Below are positions 48,252 through 59,659 of a stretch of DNA of 64,000 nucleotides, piece by piece. The position numbers and the translations under genes were made by a program. The DNA comes from Alphaproteobacteria bacterium (GTDB taxonomy: Bacteria > Pseudomonadota > Alphaproteobacteria > Caulobacterales > Hyphomonadaceae): contig JAHJYW010000045.1 of the NCBI GenBank assembly GCA_018827375.1, forward strand, positions 124,001-188,000, read 5' to 3'. The notes beneath the pieces were generated by a model. It searched no databases. It was not told where the DNA came from and saw nothing but the letters and a program-made list of their open reading frames with translations. Within the stretch, counting starts at the first letter, position 1, and the number at the start of each line of letters is the position of its first letter.

Positions 48252-48844
48252 GCGGTGAGCGCTCCCCTTATGCGCAGATAGTCGAGCAATGGCAGCAGGG
48301 GCAGGCCAAGGATCGAGAAATAGTCGCCCTCGATCTGGTTGAACAGCTGCGCGCCGAGGCCTTCGAGCTGGTAGGCGCCGACGGTGGAGAGGAGCGGTTC
48401 ACCGACGCGGTCGACATAGGCATCGATGAAGGCGTCGCTGAGCGGGCGCATGGTGAGTTTTGGGCGGGCAAGGTGGCGCCAGACAGGCGTGCCGTTCTCG
48501 CAGATGACGATGGCGGTTTCGAGCGTGTGCGACTTGCCCGAGAGCTTGCGGAGGTGATCGCGCGCGGCCTCAAGATCGACCGGCTTGTCGAAGGCTTCGC
48601 GATCCAGCGAGAGCATCTGGTCACCCCCGATGACGAGGCCTTCAGTTCGGTTGGAGACTTTGACGGCTTTTAGTTCGGCAAGCTGCATGGCTTGGTCGCG
48701 CACCGACATGCCTTGGGCGCGCATGGCAGCCTTGGCAGAATCTTCATCGACATTCGGCTTTATGCTGGCGGCTTCAACACCGGCGCCTGCGAGCAGCGCC
48801 CGGCGGCTGGCGCTGCCGGAAGCAAGGGTGATGGCGAGGCTCAT
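48248..48844 (-). CDS. Maf family nucleotide pyrophosphatase
   Basis: 198 residues, Maf/YceF fold: LASGSASRRALLAGAG start, catalytic Asp in VIGGDQMLSLD, GKSHTLETAIVIC, the GAYQLEGLGAQLFNQIEGDYFSILGLPLLPLLDYLR end (quoted in parts). Hydrolyses non-canonical nucleoside triphosphates (dTTP/UTP or m7GTP type not resolved). Overlaps both neighbours by four bases. In Caulobacter relatives a maf gene also sits next to aroE near the origin. Confidence 0.92.
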   Translation of the reverse strand: MSLAITLASGSASRRALLAGAGVEAASIKPNVDEDSAKAAMRAQGMSVRDQAMQLAELKAVKVSNRTEGLVIGGDQMLSLDREAFDKPVDLEAARDHLRKLSGKSHTLETAIVICENGTPVWRHLARPKLTMRPLSDAFIDAYVDRVGEPLLSTVGAYQLEGLGAQLFNQIEGDYFSILGLPLLPLLDYLRIRGALTA

Positions 48845-49683
48845 ATCTGGCCGCGCCGTTCGTTGAGGAAGTTGAGAATGGCTGCGGCTGTTTCTTCAAC
48901 AGACCGCCTGGAGACATCGATGGTCTTCCACTTGTTTCGCTGGAAGAGACGGTTGGCTTGTGTGACCTCATCCCGCACTGCGTCTTCGTCGGCATAGATT
49001 GTGTGTTCGTCCTGGTTCAGGGAGATCAGGCGCTGGCGGCGGATCTGGACGAGACGTTCTGCGCTGATCTTCAGGCCGACAACCATCGGACCTTTATCGC
49101 CGAGCTTCTCCATGAAGTCCGGAAGCGCAACACCGGGCACCAGTGGAATGTTGCCGGCGCGGACTTTGCGGTTGGCAAGGTAGACACATGTGGGCGTCTT
49201 GGACGTTCGGCTGACGCCAAGCAGGATCACGTCCGCACCGATCAGCCCGTCCATATTCTGGCCGTCATCATGGGCCAGCGTGAAATTGATCGCTTCCATC
49301 CGGTCGAAATAGTCCTGGTCGAGCGCGTGCTGGCCGGCAACCTTGTGGTTGGCGGCAACCCCGAGGTGGCGGCCGAGCATGGCGATTGAGGCATCAAGCA
49401 CAGGAAGTGTTGCGACGCCGCGCTCGCGGCAAAAGGCCTCCAGTCGCGTGCGCAGCGCTTCATCGGAAATCGTGTACCAGACGACACCCGGAGCCGCTTC
49501 GATCTCGCGCATCACCCGTTCAAGCTGGCGCTCGGAACGCACGAGGTAGTAGTTGTGCTCGAGAGGTTGTACATTCTCGAACTGCGCACACGCCGCTCGC
49601 TGAACGGCATTGAGGGTTTCCCCCGTACTGTCAGAGACGAGGTGGACGTTGAAATAGATGCTGGGGCGCTGCGGTGGGGTCAT
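48841..49683 (-). CDS. PEP synthase / PPDK regulatory protein (DUF299)
   Basis: 280 residues. Bifunctional kinase/pyrophosphorylase that controls pyruvate,phosphate dikinase or PEP synthase by ADP-dependent phosphorylation. Seen: YFNVHLVSDSTGETLNAVQ start, P-loop GVSRTSKTPTCVYLANRKVRAGNIP at about residue 154 (quoted in part), LVPGVALPDFMEKL, RLVQIRRQRL. This is the gene known as RP001 in Rickettsia, which lies next to hemE at the origin there and in Caulobacter. Start ATG at 49683 faces the origin region. Confidence 0.93.
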   Translation of the reverse strand: MTPPQRPSIYFNVHLVSDSTGETLNAVQRAACAQFENVQPLEHNYYLVRSERQLERVMREIEAAPGVVWYTISDEALRTRLEAFCRERGVATLPVLDASIAMLGRHLGVAANHKVAGQHALDQDYFDRMEAINFTLAHDDGQNMDGLIGADVILLGVSRTSKTPTCVYLANRKVRAGNIPLVPGVALPDFMEKLGDKGPMVVGLKISAERLVQIRRQRLISLNQDEHTIYADEDAVRDEVTQANRLFQRNKWKTIDVSRRSVEETAAAILNFLNERRGQI

Positions 49684-49843
49684 GGCTTCCTCTCTTGCCG
49701 ATGGCCGGGCATTTTCACAAGACCTGTGTAGTTCCTGTGCATAGATGATTCCTCACACCGGGAGTCACAATCCATACACAAGCGGCGGAATCTGACTCCC
49801 CATGAATCCCCGTATGTTCCATCCTGTGACTCCAGAAGGGGCG

Positions 49844-49859
49844 TTAAGAGGTCATTAAC
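49844..49859 (+). promoter_or_regulatory. CtrA box 1
   Basis: TTAA at 49844-49847, seven bases, TTAAC at 49855-49859: exact match to the CtrA consensus TTAA-N7-TTAAC. In Caulobacter CtrA-P binds such boxes to block replication start in swarmer cells. Confidence 0.88.
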
Positions 49860-49877
49860 CAGCGCGGCCATTGAAGG

Positions 49878-49893
49878 TTAAGCAAGTCTTAAC
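49878..49893 (+). promoter_or_regulatory. CtrA box 2
   Basis: TTAA at 49878-49881, seven bases, TTAAC at 49889-49893: a second exact consensus, same orientation, 34 bases after the first (just over three helical turns). Confidence 0.88.
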
Positions 49894-50009
49894 GGGGTGC
49901 GACACCCTGTGACTCCCATGTGGAATTTGCTGGACAAATCCTGTGAGTGGCCTTTCTCCCCTGATATCACCGGGTAGTAATAATAAGCGCCCTGACGGGC
50001 TTTTGAGAT

Positions 50010-51065
50010 ATGAGAGATTTGAGGGTCATGGGGAACGCAAGCACATCAAAACTGATATCAGTTCTCGGCGGAGAAGCAGCCAAGGTGCCTCCGGTATGGA
50101 TGATGCGGCAAGCCGGGCGTCACCTACCAGAATATCTCGAGCTGAGATCACGTGCCAAAGACTTTCTCGATTTTTGTTACACACCTTCCATGGCAGCTGA
50201 AGCGACGCTCCAGCCTGTCCGGCGCTATGGCATGGATGCAGCGATCCTGTTTGCCGACATTCTGCTGATCCTTGATGCGATGGGCCTCGGTGTGAAGTTC
50301 GAGAAGGGTGTCGGCCCTCTCGTGCAGCAGATCGAGTCGGCGGCGGATCTTGGTAAAGTGCCTGCGAAGAAAGCGGCTGACCGGTTGGCGCCTGTCTATG
50401 AGACCGTTTCGCGTGTTAAATCTGAACTGTCGGCTGAAACCGCATTGATTGGTTTTGCCGGATCGCCCTGGACGGTGAGCCTTTATGCCATCGAAGGTCG
50501 TGGCAAGACTGACAAATCGCTCGCCTGGCGCTGGGCACATGGCAAGCAGGCCGAATTGGCCGCCGTGATGGACTATGTGATTGAGGCGACAGCGCATTAC
50601 CTGTTGCGGCAGGTTGAGGCCGGGGCTCAGGTCCTGATGCTGTTCGACAGCTGGGCCGAGGGCCTGCCGGATAATATTTTCCGCGAAGTGATCATCACCC
50701 CAACCCGGAAAATCGTGAGGCTCTTGCGCGAGATGGGCGTTACCGTGCCGATTATCGGCTTTCCGCGTGGCGCCGGAGCGATGTTGCCGGAATATGCCCG
50801 TGAGACTGGGGTTACCGCTGTCGGGCTTGATACGGCCGTTGTGCCGAGTTTCGTGAAAGCGGAGCTCGTTGCAGGCATGCCTGTGCAGGGTCATCTGGAC
50901 CCGTTGCTGCTGATCGAAGGCGGCGAGCGCATGGATGAACGCGTCCGCGAACTTGTGGCAGCCTATGCCGGGCGCCCCCATATCTTTAACCTCGGCCATG
51001 GTATCCGGCCGGAAACACCTATCGGGAACGTGGAACGCGTCCTGAAAATCATTCGGGAAGGCTGA
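50010..51065 (+). CDS. hemE: Uroporphyrinogen decarboxylase
   Basis: Converts uroporphyrinogen III to coproporphyrinogen III in haem synthesis. 351 residues from ATG 50010; ATG 50028 with GAGGG just before it is an alternative. Signature PPVWMMRQAGRHLPEYLELR (Arg, Asp/Tyr binding), ILFADILLILDAMGLGVKFEKGVGP, FAGSPWTVSLYAIEGRG, IGFPRGAG and FNLGHGI are present. It borders the origin on the right, a very conserved alphaproteobacterial position; hemH follows after 6 bases. Confidence 0.96.
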   Translation: MRDLRVMGNASTSKLISVLGGEAAKVPPVWMMRQAGRHLPEYLELRSRAKDFLDFCYTPSMAAEATLQPVRRYGMDAAILFADILLILDAMGLGVKFEKGVGPLVQQIESAADLGKVPAKKAADRLAPVYETVSRVKSELSAETALIGFAGSPWTVSLYAIEGRGKTDKSLAWRWAHGKQAELAAVMDYVIEATAHYLLRQVEAGAQVLMLFDSWAEGLPDNIFREVIITPTRKIVRLLREMGVTVPIIGFPRGAGAMLPEYARETGVTAVGLDTAVVPSFVKAELVAGMPVQGHLDPLLLIEGGERMDERVRELVAAYAGRPHIFNLGHGIRPETPIGNVERVLKIIREG

Positions 51066-55450: not shown

Positions 55451-57316
55451 ATGGCGATGCCAGACCAATTCGATGTAATTGTAATCGGCGGCGGACATGC
55501 TGGCTGCGAAGCGGCTGCGGCTGCGGCGCGCTTTGGTGCGCGCACAGCACTCGTGACGCACAAGCGCTCCACTATTGGCGAGATGAGTTGTAATCCGGCG
55601 ATTGGTGGTCTCGGCAAAGGCCACTTGGTGCGTGAGATAGACGCGCTCGACGGCCTGATGGGGCGCATGGCTGACAAGGCCGGCATCCAGTTTCGTATGC
55701 TGAATCGCTCGAAAGGCCCGGCTGTTTGGGGTCCGCGCGCACAGATAGATCGCGCACTCTATCGCCAGGCGATGCAGGCAGAACTGTCGGATTATCCCAA
55801 TCTCACGATCATCGAAGATGGCGCTGAAGACCTCATCATCGAAGACAATATTCTTAGCGGTGTGGTTGGCCTTTCCGGCACGGTTTATCACGCGCGTTCT
55901 GTAGTCATTACTACAGGTACGTTCCTGAAGGGCATGATCCATATTGGCGATAAGCGCATACCGGCCGGGCGTGTTGGCGAAGCGCCCGCGATAGGCCTGT
56001 CTGACCGGCTTTATGGCATGGGCCTGCCCATGGGCCGCCTCAAGACCGGCACACCTGCGCGTCTTGATGGCAGCACCATCGCCTGGGACCAGTTGGAGAA
56101 GCAGGCCGCCGACGAATTGCCGGTACCGTTCTCCTACATGACGGACCGGATCGACGTGCCTCAGGTGGCGTGCGGCATCACGTGGACCACCGCAGTAACG
56201 CACGCGATCATTGCCGAGAATATCAATCAGTCGGCCGTGTATTCCGGCGCAATTGCCGGACGCGGCCCGCGTTATTGCCCGTCCATCGAAGACAAAGTGG
56301 ACCGCTTCGCGGATCGCGACCGTCACCAGATCTTCCTGGAACCCGAAGGGCTGGACGACGACACCGTTTATCCAAACGGCATTTCGACCTCTCTTCCGGA
56401 ATCCGTCCAGGATCAGTTCATTCGGACCATTCCGGGCCTCGAAAACGTGGTGATCCGGCAATATGCCTACGCAATTGAGTATGACTACGTCGATCCGCGC
56501 GCATTGACGCCGGCACTGGAAGTGCGCGCTCAAACCGGCCTCTATCTCGCCGGACAGATCAACGGCACCACGGGATACGAAGAGGCCGGGGCGCAGGGGC
56601 TGGTGGCCGGATTGAATGCGGCACGGGCATCAGCGGGCAAAGACCCCGTCATGTTCGACCGCGCCGAGGCTTATATCGGTGTCCTTATCGACGACCTCGT
56701 CACGCGTGGTGTGACGGAGCCGTATCGCATGTTCACGTCGCGCGCCGAATACCGCCTGGCACTCCGAGCGGACAATGCGGATCAGCGTTTGACACGAAAA
56801 GGCCTCGAAATGGGCTGTGTGGGCCCAATTCGGGCCAAAGTGTTTCACGTGAAACAAGATGCATTAACCCGCGCACGTGAAACGCTCCAGTCTCTGATGC
56901 TTTCGCCCGCAAAGGCGGCAAATGCGGGATGGGCGATCAATCAGGATGGTCGTGTGAGATCCGCCTGGGAATATCTCGCCTACAAGGATATCGGTTTTGC
57001 AGAACTCGCTCGCGTGTGGCCTGAATTGTCGGAGCTTCCCGGGACAGTGACGGCACAATTGGAAATCGAGGCCCTATATTCCGGTTATCTCGACCGTCAG
57101 GCGGCTGATGTCGCGGCGCTGCGTCGTGACGAAAGCCTGACGCTTCCGCGTGATATTGATTATGCCTCGGTTGGGGGGCTTTCTAATGAGGTGCGCCAGA
57201 AGCTTGAAACGATCCAACCTTTGACCCTTGGCCAGGCGGGACGGATAGAGGGCGTCACCCCGGGCGCGCTCACGGCGCTCCTGAGTCACGTAAAGCGTCG
57301 CGCGAAGGCGGTCTGA
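55451..57316 (+). CDS. mnmG: tRNA uridine-5-carboxymethylaminomethyl modification enzyme MnmG
   Basis: FAD-dependent partner of MnmE. 621 residues from ATG 55451 (a TTG just before is less likely). [10 protein letters not shown] at 13-22 is the FAD motif; [46 protein letters not shown] and the C-terminal tRNA-binding half ([12 protein letters not shown]) are typical. Contains a parS site (56841-56856) inside its coding sequence. Ends four bases before rsmG. Confidence 0.97.
56841..56856. promoter_or_regulatory. parS site 1, inside mnmG
   Basis: TGTTTCACGTGAAACA, a perfect 16-base palindrome identical to the consensus ParB-binding site. It is read within mnmG codons and lies about 7 kb to the right of the origin region, as expected for a centromere that is segregated early. 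Confidence 0.95.
56874..56883. promoter_or_regulatory. Degenerate parS half-match
   Basis: CACGTGAAAC, 33 bases after parS site 1 (start to start), keeps the right half and centre of the palindrome but has CGCG instead of TGTTT on the left. It may be a weak ParB contact or chance; shown because of its close spacing. Confidence 0.35.
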
Positions 57317-57319
57317 CCA

Positions 57320-57943
57320 ATGACAAGCGAGAATGACCGCGCGGTATTCCTGGCCGCTCATAATGTTTCACGTGAAACTCTTAACCGTCTCGATCAGGTC
57401 ATCGACACCCTTGATTCCTGGCGGATGAAGTCGAACCTGATCGGACCGCGTGAGTGGCCGCATATCTGGCAAAGGCATGTGTGGGATAGTCTGCAATTGC
57501 TCGACCACATTCCTGAGACTGCCCGCGTCGTTGATCTCGGATCCGGGGCCGGTTTTCCAGGCCTTATCATTGCGGCAGCGCGGCCTGCTGGGCACGTGAC
57601 AATGATGGAAAGCGTGGGAAAGAAAACGGCCTTCCTCAACGCGGCGATAAATGCAGCCGGTTTATCGGGCGATGTGTATCAGGGACGGGTGGAATCGGCC
57701 CCTGCCAGCCAGGCGGATATCGTGACGGCGCGCGCTTTTGCGCCCCTGCCAAAGCTTCTCGATTATGCCGCGCCGTGGATGAAGAACGGTGCAAAAGGGC
57801 TGTTCCTCAAAGGCGAACGCTGGGAAGAAGAATTGACGGAAGCCCGACAAAGGTGGAGTTTCGCTTATGAGGCGATTCCGAGTCGAAGCGGTGGGTCGGG
57901 AGTCGTGTTGATCGTAAGGGAGCTACAAGGTGGCGAAGCCTAG
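57320..57943 (+). CDS. rsmG: 16S rRNA (guanine-527-N7)-methyltransferase RsmG
   Basis: SAM-dependent methyltransferase, 207 residues. Motif I VVDLGSGAGFPGLIIAAA at about residues 71-88; KKTAFLNAAINAAG, ARAFAPLPKLLDYAAPWM and LFLKGERWEEEL follow. A second parS lies in its 5' part (57364-57379). Its stop is 14 bases inside parA, so parA is probably coupled. Confidence 0.96.
   Translation: MTSENDRAVFLAAHNVSRETLNRLDQVIDTLDSWRMKSNLIGPREWPHIWQRHVWDSLQLLDHIPETARVVDLGSGAGFPGLIIAAARPAGHVTMMESVGKKTAFLNAAINAAGLSGDVYQGRVESAPASQADIVTARAFAPLPKLLDYAAPWMKNGAKGLFLKGERWEEELTEARQRWSFAYEAIPSRSGGSGVVLIVRELQGGEA
57364..57379. promoter_or_regulatory. parS site 2, inside rsmG
   Basis: TGTTTCACGTGAAACT: 15 of 16 positions match the parS palindrome. 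It lies 523 bases from site 1, in the 5' end of rsmG, 565 bases upstream of parA. Confidence 0.92.
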
Positions 57944-58736
57944 GATTTTTGCTGTGGTGAATCAGAAGGGCGGGGTCGGTAAGACCACGACTTCGATTAA
58001 CCTTGGAACTGCATTGGCGGCTGTGGGGCGCCGCGTTCTGATTGTCGATTTTGACGCGCAGGGTAATGCCTCGACGGGTCTCGGTATTTCTAGGGCAGAC
58101 CGGCAATTGACCAGTTATGACCTGGTTGTTGACCGCGTGGACATGGAACAGACGGTCTTGTCGACCATCGTGCCGCGACTGGACATTGTTCCGGGCGACG
58201 AAAACCTGTCTGGCGTCGAGACTGAACTGGCTCAGGATGCGCGCCGTTCCTACCGCTTGCGTGAAGCGCTCATGAACTATGTCGAGCGGGCGGAAATAGG
58301 CGGCCTCGTGAAATACGATTATATCCTGATCGATTGCCCGCCATCCCTGTCTGCGCTCACATTGAACGCCATGACGGCAGCAAATGCGCTACTCGTGCCG
58401 CTTCAATGCGAATTCCTGGCACTTGAGGGCTTGTCGCAATTGATGCGGACCGTTGAAGTCGTACGGCAGGGCCTCAATCCCGGGCTGGAAATTCAGGGCG
58501 TGGTGCTGACGATGTATGACCGTCGCAACAACCTGTCCGATGAAGTGGCAGACCAGGTGCGGGCCTATTTCGGCAACAAGGTCTATAACACGGTCATACC
58601 GCGGAATGTCCGTCTGTCCGAAGCGCCGTCCTTCGGTAAGCCCGCACTACTTTATGATTATCGGTGTCCTGGCAGCGAGGCTTACATTCGTCTCGCGTCC
58701 GAAGTCCTGCAACGCGAAAAAGCGAGAGCGGCCTGA
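57930..58736 (+). CDS. parA: Chromosome-partitioning ATPase ParA
   Basis: Deviant Walker ATPase, 268 residues, that forms a nucleoid gradient along which ParB-parS complexes move. Start is GTG 57930, with GGGAG eight bases upstream, overlapping rsmG by 14 bases. Walker A KGGVGKTT at 13-20, DFDAQGNAS at about 40, LIDCPPSLSALTLNAM (Walker B region) and LVPLQCEFLALEGLSQL are complete. parB follows after 5 bases. Confidence 0.96.
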   Translation: MAKPRIFAVVNQKGGVGKTTTSINLGTALAAVGRRVLIVDFDAQGNASTGLGISRADRQLTSYDLVVDRVDMEQTVLSTIVPRLDIVPGDENLSGVETELAQDARRSYRLREALMNYVERAEIGGLVKYDYILIDCPPSLSALTLNAMTAANALLVPLQCEFLALEGLSQLMRTVEVVRQGLNPGLEIQGVVLTMYDRRNNLSDEVADQVRAYFGNKVYNTVIPRNVRLSEAPSFGKPALLYDYRCPGSEAYIRLASEVLQREKARAA

Positions 58737-58741
58737 TCACG

Positions 58742-59659
58742 ATGAGCGAAGAGGCAAAGAGCAAACCGACACGGCTAGGTCGCGGGCTGTCTGCCCTGAT
58801 GGGGGAGGTCGACGCCGTCGGCGCCACGCCTGGAAAAGAGGTCACCGACAAGCCCGGTGTTGCCTCGAATGAAATCGATATCGATCTTATTCGCCGCAAT
58901 CCGGCCCAGCCACGCCGCACGTTCGATGAAAATGCGCTCAACGAGCTGGCAGAATCGCTGAAGAGCAAGGGTGTGTTGCAGGCCATCCTCGTGCGGCCGG
59001 ACCCGAAAGACAAAGGCAAGTTCCAGATTATTGCCGGTGAACGCCGCTGGCGTGCTGCGAAGATTGCCGGCCTCAAGTCGATCCCGGCTCTTGTCCGCGA
59101 TATCGACGAGCTTGAGCTACTCGAAATTGGCATCATCGAGAACGTGCAGCGCGCAGATCTCAACCCGATCGAGGAAGCCGAGGCCTACGAGGCGCTGATG
59201 AAGCGTTTTGGCCGGACGCAGGACAGCCTCGCGAACAGTGTTGGCAAAAGCCGTGTGCACATCGCCAACACGCTGCGCCTTTTGCAATTGCCGGAAAGCG
59301 CGCGCGCTTATGTGCGTGAAGGCAAGATCAGTGCGGGTCACGCCCGTGCAGCCCTCGGCGCGCCCGATCCGGAAGCGCTCGTGAAGCTGGCCGCCGAGAA
59401 AGGTCTCAGCGTTCGCGACGTTGAGGCGAAGGCAAAGGAGGCCCGCGAAGGCGGGTCGATCGAGACCAAATCGGCCAAGCAGGTTGGGGACGAGAAGGAT
59501 GTCGACACAGAGGCGCTGGAAGCTGACCTGACCCGCACGCTGGGTCTGGCTGTCGATATCCGTCATGGCAAGAATGGCGGCGAGCTGCGGATCCAGTATC
59601 GCGATCTGGAACAGCTCGATGATGTGTGCCGGCGCCTGACGGCCAAACGCGGAAGCTGA
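58742..59659 (+). CDS. parB: Chromosome-partitioning CTPase ParB
   Basis: 305 residues from ATG 58742. N-terminal ParA-interacting LGRGLSALMG (12-21); CTP-binding/spreading motif GERRWRAA at about 100 and IIENVQRADLNPIEEAEA; central helix-turn-helix with SLANSVGKSRVHIANTLRLLQLP that reads parS; acidic linker EKDVDTEALEADL and C-terminal dimer domain. Binds the parS sites in mnmG and rsmG nearby. Its stop directly abuts the holA stop (59660) with no spacer. Confidence 0.96.
   Translation: MSEEAKSKPTRLGRGLSALMGEVDAVGATPGKEVTDKPGVASNEIDIDLIRRNPAQPRRTFDENALNELAESLKSKGVLQAILVRPDPKDKGKFQIIAGERRWRAAKIAGLKSIPALVRDIDELELLEIGIIENVQRADLNPIEEAEAYEALMKRFGRTQDSLANSVGKSRVHIANTLRLLQLPESARAYVREGKISAGHARAALGAPDPEALVKLAAEKGLSVRDVEAKAKEAREGGSIETKSAKQVGDEKDVDTEALEADLTRTLGLAVDIRHGKNGGELRIQYRDLEQLDDVCRRLTAKRGS

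Follow-up and report, generated by a model that had tools for sequence, protein, structure and literature searches.

The gap between the PpsR/DUF299 gene and hemE in a Hyphomonas genome is very probably the chromosomal replication origin, and it carries a set of phased TGTG/GANTC boxes that is conserved in 39 of 39 gaps of this genus and was missed by the initial annotation. TGTG boxes form exactly three pairs in each of these gaps; the two members of a pair share a strand and are spaced by 11 bp, and the pairs follow the order +, -, +. We read the gap, with a probability of roughly 0.55, as an origin gated by CtrA in which methylation by CcrM tunes weak DnaA boxes, a reading in which we infer the binding of DnaA and the effect of methylation. 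An origin of this kind is known; its genus-wide anatomy, in which DnaA-like pairs are phased and contain CcrM sites, appears to be undescribed, and among the open-access papers listed on Hyphomonas, CcrM, GANTC, or DnaA-box origins, no title or abstract opening describes this arrangement.

The window, the whole stretch of 64,000 nucleotides that was analysed, belongs to a Hyphomonas genome of 3.63 Mb in 50 contigs. In the family set of 105 genomes, Hyphomonas is genus g1 and Henriciella genus g3. A DUF299 match was found in 103 genomes, and 101 gaps remained after two genomes with hits near a contig end (G090 and G101) were left out; 98 gaps (39 from Hyphomonas and 59 from other genera) entered the spacing count. 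For 39 of the 42 Hyphomonas genomes, the gap entered the alignment and the counts. The other three stood outside the gap counts because the record start splits the gap (G042), the contig ends and hemE is missing (G071), or the gap is 814 bp long (G066), and all three were included in the 42-genome motif search described below. In the order outside the family, 42 gaps were examined (40 stretches plus L292 and L211), with hemE in reach in 40; in the class, 68 of 104 matching genomes were examined (29 loci and 39 stretches), with hemE in reach in 62. One genome (G156) is counted in both the order and the class sets.

Table 1. Features of the proposed origin gap and its surroundings (positions in the window).
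Feature	Position	Strand	Basis or conservation
Intergenic gap, proposed chromosomal replication origin	49684..50009 (probably to 50027)	.	Gene order, skew, box anatomy, published origin map of H. neptunium
PpsR/DUF299 (COG1806) gene, left flank	48841..49683	-	NF003742, 4.4e-93
hemE, right flank	50010..51065	+	TIGR01464, 5.8e-107; true start likely 50028 (comparison with relatives)
Pair A: TGTGTAGTT + TGTGCATAG, 11 bp apart	49725..49744	+	GANTC absent here; at the same place in 33/39 gaps
Lone GANTC (GATTC), the gap's seventh	49747..49751	.	
Pair B: TGTGTATGG + TGTGACTCC, 11 bp apart	49761..49780	-	GANTC at 49762 in 39/39
Three GANTC without TGTG	49788..49808 (sites 49788, 49794, 49804)	.	
Single box D: TGTGACTCC	49825..49833	+	GANTC in 38/39
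CtrA box 1, palindrome GTTAA-N7-TTAAC	49843..49859	.	Full in 22/39, near in 17/39 Hyphomonas gaps
CtrA box 2, palindrome GTTAA-N7-TTAAC	49877..49893	.	Full in 14/39, half in 11/39, absent in 14/39
Pair F: TGTGACTCC + TGTGGAATT, 11 bp apart	49908..49927	+	GANTC in 37/39
AT-rich stretch + short inverted repeat GCCC-TGAC-GGGC	49975..50000	+	Largely conserved (Hyphomonas alignment)
Two parS-like sites	56841-56856 (exact), 57364-57379 (one mismatch)	.	Match to the parS consensus
parA + parB	57930..59659	+	Right of the gap

The initial annotation had placed the origin between the DUF299 gene and hemE, and this placement is supported by the gene order, the distance to parABS, the GC skew, and the published mapping in H. 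neptunium. The flanking genes run outward as described, PpsR/DUF299 on the minus strand and hemE on the plus strand; parABS, put at 7-9 kb, is represented by the parS-like sites and parA/parB about 6.8-9.7 kb to the right of the gap. This reading of the gap is well supported and yet largely known, having been made previously for the genus: in H. neptunium, the origin is reported to map near hemE, with the marker frequency peaking there (PMC6650430, PMC7200025). A change in GC skew at the gap had been named as a check. In the window's own contig, such a change is seen within about 8 kb, with the minimum of the cumulative skew (C40:165414) 8.3 kb off the gap. In 19 sampled stretches of a relative (G074), the sign of the skew flips between 1.158 and 1.327 Mb, an interval that brackets the gap at 1.242 Mb, and flips back at about 3.04-3.21 Mb, on the other side of the chromosome. 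In a single-contig Hyphomonas genome of 3,705,021 bp (G042), presumably H. neptunium, base 1 lies inside the gap. The displaced minimum in the own contig would also suit an origin elsewhere, for example at dnaA (locus L145, on contig C25 and not on the contig of the gap), with the gap merely a regulatory region, as would the H. neptunium study, which, in its accessible text, could not clearly place the origin from skew, from dnaA, or from DnaA sites. This is very improbable, however, given the marker-frequency peak near hemE in H. neptunium, the two skew flips in G074, and the fact that parABS adjoins the gap.

The gap has a GC content of 0.521, versus 0.58-0.65 in the 2-kb steps of the window, and is AT-richer than the genome. 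Comparison with relatives favours the ATG at 50028 over 50010 as the start of hemE, and the gap would therefore measure about 344 bp. The inverted repeat GCCC-TGAC-GGGC (49989-50000), which follows the AT-rich stretch and precedes hemE, is nearly invariant in Hyphomonas. A scan of the gap gave no terminator-like site, no RNA family matched it up to an E value of 1, and there are zero exact matches to a consensus of the IHF site within 49601-50100. The origin of C. crescentus is reported to carry a non-coding RNA, CcnA.

The TGTG boxes are phased: the 39 Hyphomonas gaps contain 117 pairs at a spacing of 11 bp, 15 at 10, and 11 at 12, and when the gap was shuffled 5000 times, three 11-bp pairs never arose. 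The window's boxes have their starts at 49725 and 49736 (+), 49780 and 49769 (-), and 49908 and 49919 (+). The characteristic member of these pairs is TGTGANTC, which joins half of a DnaA box to GANTC, the site of CcrM. At least one TGTGANTC is present in 109 of the 117 pairs and none in eight; its partner is TGTGGA in 79 pairs, another TGTGG box in nine, a second TGTGANTC in 15, and something else in six. It should be mentioned that the window's copy is a weak representative, with TGTGGA in pair F only and with a pair A that lacks GANTC, as in six of the 39 gaps, the window's included.

At least one 11-bp TGTG pair is found in 42 of the 59 gaps from the family's other genera. Three pairs are found in all 39 Hyphomonas gaps and in the single genome of genus g6, and in none of the 58 other family gaps, the 40 gaps from four other families of the order, or the 62 class gaps. 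Apart from Hyphomonas and g6, one of the 40 order gaps and three of the 62 class gaps have two or more TGTGANTC. When the 42 whole Hyphomonas genomes were searched for TGTGANTC-N3-TGTGGA, a motif derived from the same sequences in which it was counted, 71 matches were obtained, all of them in the gap, and the reversed-pattern control gave 0. Upstream of DUF299, 70 of the matches lie at most 420 bp away and one, in the longer gap of G066, at 652 bp; G042 carries two such sites. TGTGANTC alone is common, with 108 strand-hits in the own genome (three in the gap) versus 93 for the reversed control, and TGTGACTCC has five strand-hits there, three of them in the gap.

The 814-bp gap of G066 (L025, G066:C18), a Hyphomonas MAG that is 74% complete, is twice the usual length. 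By eye, it contains an extra short reading frame; a full CtrA box is absent, and two TGTGANTC-N3-TGTGGA sites are retained. This suggests that DNA was inserted into the origin or that the assembly is faulty.

The CcrM sites themselves are probably under selection, to judge from their density and from the way in which they vary. The gap has seven GANTC in 326 bp, the contig mean is 1.65 per kb, and no second 326-bp stretch in 324 kb of the 330-kb contig has six or more; only one of 5000 dinucleotide shuffles of the gap reached seven. Four TGTGANTC boxes were traced on a hemE tree. In three of them, B2, D, and F1, 13 of 16 changes fall on the N of GANTC and three across the other 21 positions (binomial 7e-10 if rates were even), which is what selection for recognition by CcrM would produce. 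At GANTCACA (49762), the other seven bases are invariant in 39 of 39 gaps, with N being G in nine, A in nine, T in 14, and C in seven. Box A1 is off this pattern, with five changes at N and five elsewhere. In the DnaA consensus, the base directly after TGTG is degenerate. Here, unlike that consensus, this base is always A and the variation sits at the base that follows, as expected for recognition by CcrM. The genome encodes both CcrM (2.7e-160 to C. crescentus CcrM, 6pbd) and GcrA.

We consider it likely that DnaA uses the 11-bp pairs. The gap contains no match to the consensus DnaA box TTATCCACA with up to one mismatch and has weaker phased TGTG boxes instead, and it is from these that we infer a role for DnaA; the pairing of TGTGANTC with TGTGG boxes argues for it. 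At the place of the left pair, TGTGGA comes first in 29 of 29 Henriciella gaps, and the pair is TGTGGA/TGTGGA in 22 of them. The same double box is found in five of seven g7 gaps, and genera g10, g5, and g8 are without such a pair. These Henriciella pairs and the free N in B2 and D made it less likely that TGTGACTCC is an iteron with no relation to DnaA. Alternatively, TGTGANTC might be the site of another origin protein, a SeqA-like blocker reading methylated or hemimethylated GANTC. Such a protein could account for boxes in which TGTG and GANTC are fixed and N drifts (B2, D, and F1), and for a box D that stands outside the three pairs, and SeqA itself was not found in the own genome (no PF03925 match; the E. 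coli control was positive). The TGTGG partner boxes, however, argue for DnaA, and the search, which was for SeqA, gave no candidate protein, so that we regard this alternative as quite unlikely.

An altered recognition helix of DnaA was also considered and rejected. The motif R[DN]HTT is present in 25 of 31 DnaA loci, including those of 13 Hyphomonas and the own gene, and the Hyphomonas genes examined keep RDHTT. The six other loci, from g3 and g6, have KDHTT (five, from g3) or RDHST (one), and there is thus a small difference between Hyphomonas and g3. The DnaA proteins of this family are divergent, with 14 of 105 genomes above the TIGR00362 cut-off and the own protein at 315.2 versus 343.9 bits.

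Two exact TTAA-N7-TTAAC boxes had been claimed, and they were found on the plus strand at 49844-49859 and 49878-49893. Because each is part of a 17-bp palindrome, both match on the minus strand too: the 64 kb contain four strand-hits versus 0.04 expected, a number reached in 0 of 100 shuffles. When the gap was shuffled 5000 times with its dinucleotides preserved, two 17-bp boxes never appeared, and the whole 3.63-Mb genome has 17 strand-hits, with six for the reversed-pattern control. The suggestion that two boxes make a simpler design with cooperative CtrA binding finds no support across the genus, in which both are full in only five of 39 gaps. Control of the origin by CtrA is a plausible part of the same proposal, since CtrA is reported to bind beside the origin in H. 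neptunium, with a ChIP consensus of TTAA-N7-TTAAC (PMC7200025).

We propose that the CtrA-gated origin would work as follows. DnaA would load on the three box pairs, each lying on one helical face (11 bp), in the order +, -, +; most pairs combine a weak TGTG-GANTC member with a more DnaA-like one (TGTGG). CtrA would occupy the palindromes, which lie between the left and the right boxes, and hold the origin shut in cells that are not replicating. Once the fork has passed, the GANTC sites would be hemimethylated until CcrM acts again, which may alter the occupancy of the weak boxes, through DnaA itself or a reader such as GcrA, and so help to limit initiation to once per cycle. That initiation is controlled by methylation we hold only tentatively, at somewhat less than even odds. 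Similarly tentative is the further step that Hyphomonas independently evolved a methylation-coupled origin, a SeqA-free alphaproteobacterial counterpart of Dam/SeqA in which CcrM sites within weak DnaA boxes would keep the hemimethylated origin from reloading DnaA until CcrM comes into play late in the cycle.

Alternatively, the gap might be an ordinary CtrA/DnaA origin, in which the GANTC sites have to do with transcription and not with initiation, as elements of a hemE or DUF299 promoter regulated by GcrA/CcrM. The gap does lie upstream of two divergent genes, GcrA is encoded, and GANTC methylation is reported to act on promoters of C. crescentus. This explanation has to contend with seven sites spread over about 170 bp, three of them inside TGTGANTC boxes and in two orientations, with the confinement of the combined motif to the gap in 42 genomes, and with the DnaA-like pairs at the left-pair place in Henriciella; moreover, a weak scan found no sigma-70-like promoter in the gap. 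We think it unlikely, and prefer the origin tuned by CcrM.

The gap can be set beside several known origins. That of H. neptunium is alike in lying near hemE, with parAB about 7 kb away, two parS sites, and adjacent CtrA binding, but the accessible text of the reports mentions neither DnaA nor GANTC boxes there (PMC6650430, PMC7200025). Cori of C. crescentus shares the hemE/COG1806 position, the CtrA boxes, weak DnaA boxes, and several GANTC (PMC8959179, PMC1914354, PMC3973325, the last citing Shaheen 2009 for the GANTC), but is reported to have five CtrA boxes and two strong plus five weak DnaA boxes. Order family f2, probably the Caulobacteraceae, has a mean of 3.3 GANTC and no 11-bp TGTG pair in 11 sampled gaps; the 39 Hyphomonas gaps have a mean of 8.0 and three pairs. 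G042, probably H. neptunium, has one near CtrA box, and the window two full ones. Published results on other Alphaproteobacteria speak against a part for CcrM in initiation. According to a review, CcrM is dispensable for this step in C. crescentus, which sets it apart from Dam, though its overexpression disturbs the chromosome content; ori1 of A. tumefaciens is reported to show no obvious change upon CcrM depletion.

In E. coli oriC, weak DnaA sites are reported to lie exactly two bp apart (PMC4451416), so that successive 9-mers start at intervals of 11 bp. GATC is found inside or over the weak sites R5M, tau2, I2, and I3, and SeqA keeps DnaA off hemimethylated weak sites (PMC8488378). The likeness thus extends to weak sites two bp apart on one face, opposed arrays, and methylation motifs in or over weak sites (PMC8488378, PMC4451416). 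The difference is that oriC uses Dam/GATC with SeqA and four-site arrays, whereas the Hyphomonas gap has CcrM/GANTC, no SeqA found, pairs, and added CtrA boxes. The gap has a cluster of methylation motifs (GANTC, not GATC), the cognate methylase, and GANTC inside the TGTGANTC boxes, which are putative weak DnaA sites; because SeqA was not found, we do not file it as an origin of the Dam/SeqA type. Clusters of orphan-methylase motifs have been described at replication origins, and the four cases named in the accessible text (GATC, TTAA, CTCGAG, and a haloarchaeal motif) do not include GANTC/CcrM (PMC4752239). The repABC origins of chromids and megaplasmids in Alphaproteobacteria are likewise GANTC-rich, but their initiator is RepC rather than DnaA, and the binding of RepC in vitro is reported to be methylation-independent (PMC6090056).

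The box pattern uniquely marks the origin gap across the 42 Hyphomonas genomes searched and names the bases to test. It also allows a test of whether methylation by CcrM has direct control over initiation in some Alphaproteobacteria; CcrM sites are on record at the origin of C. crescentus, where they have no clear role in this step. In this budding marine bacterium, putative initiator sites with built-in CcrM marks may help the cell to replicate its chromosome no more than once.

Clustering of GANTC was rejected as a class-wide rule, as at least five sites are present in only 14 of 62 class gaps (mean 3.2, versus 1.7 expected from base composition). Within the family, 10 of 12 gaps of genus g10 (L095, L098, L102, L113, and others) contain 9-15 GANTC and two contain 2-3, and the g5 gap (L107) contains 12, all without 11-bp TGTG pairs. 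The fusion of TGTG to GANTC is therefore not the sole arrangement. In five of six displayed g10 gaps, GGACTCGACTC stands directly beside a CtrA box, and GANTC is found near hemE in all six. These gaps suggest a second, different design of GANTC-dense origin. Two distant Alphaproteobacteria of one class family (f33; L237 and L249) are perhaps a convergent case: each has one 11-bp TGTG pair along with three TGTGANTC.
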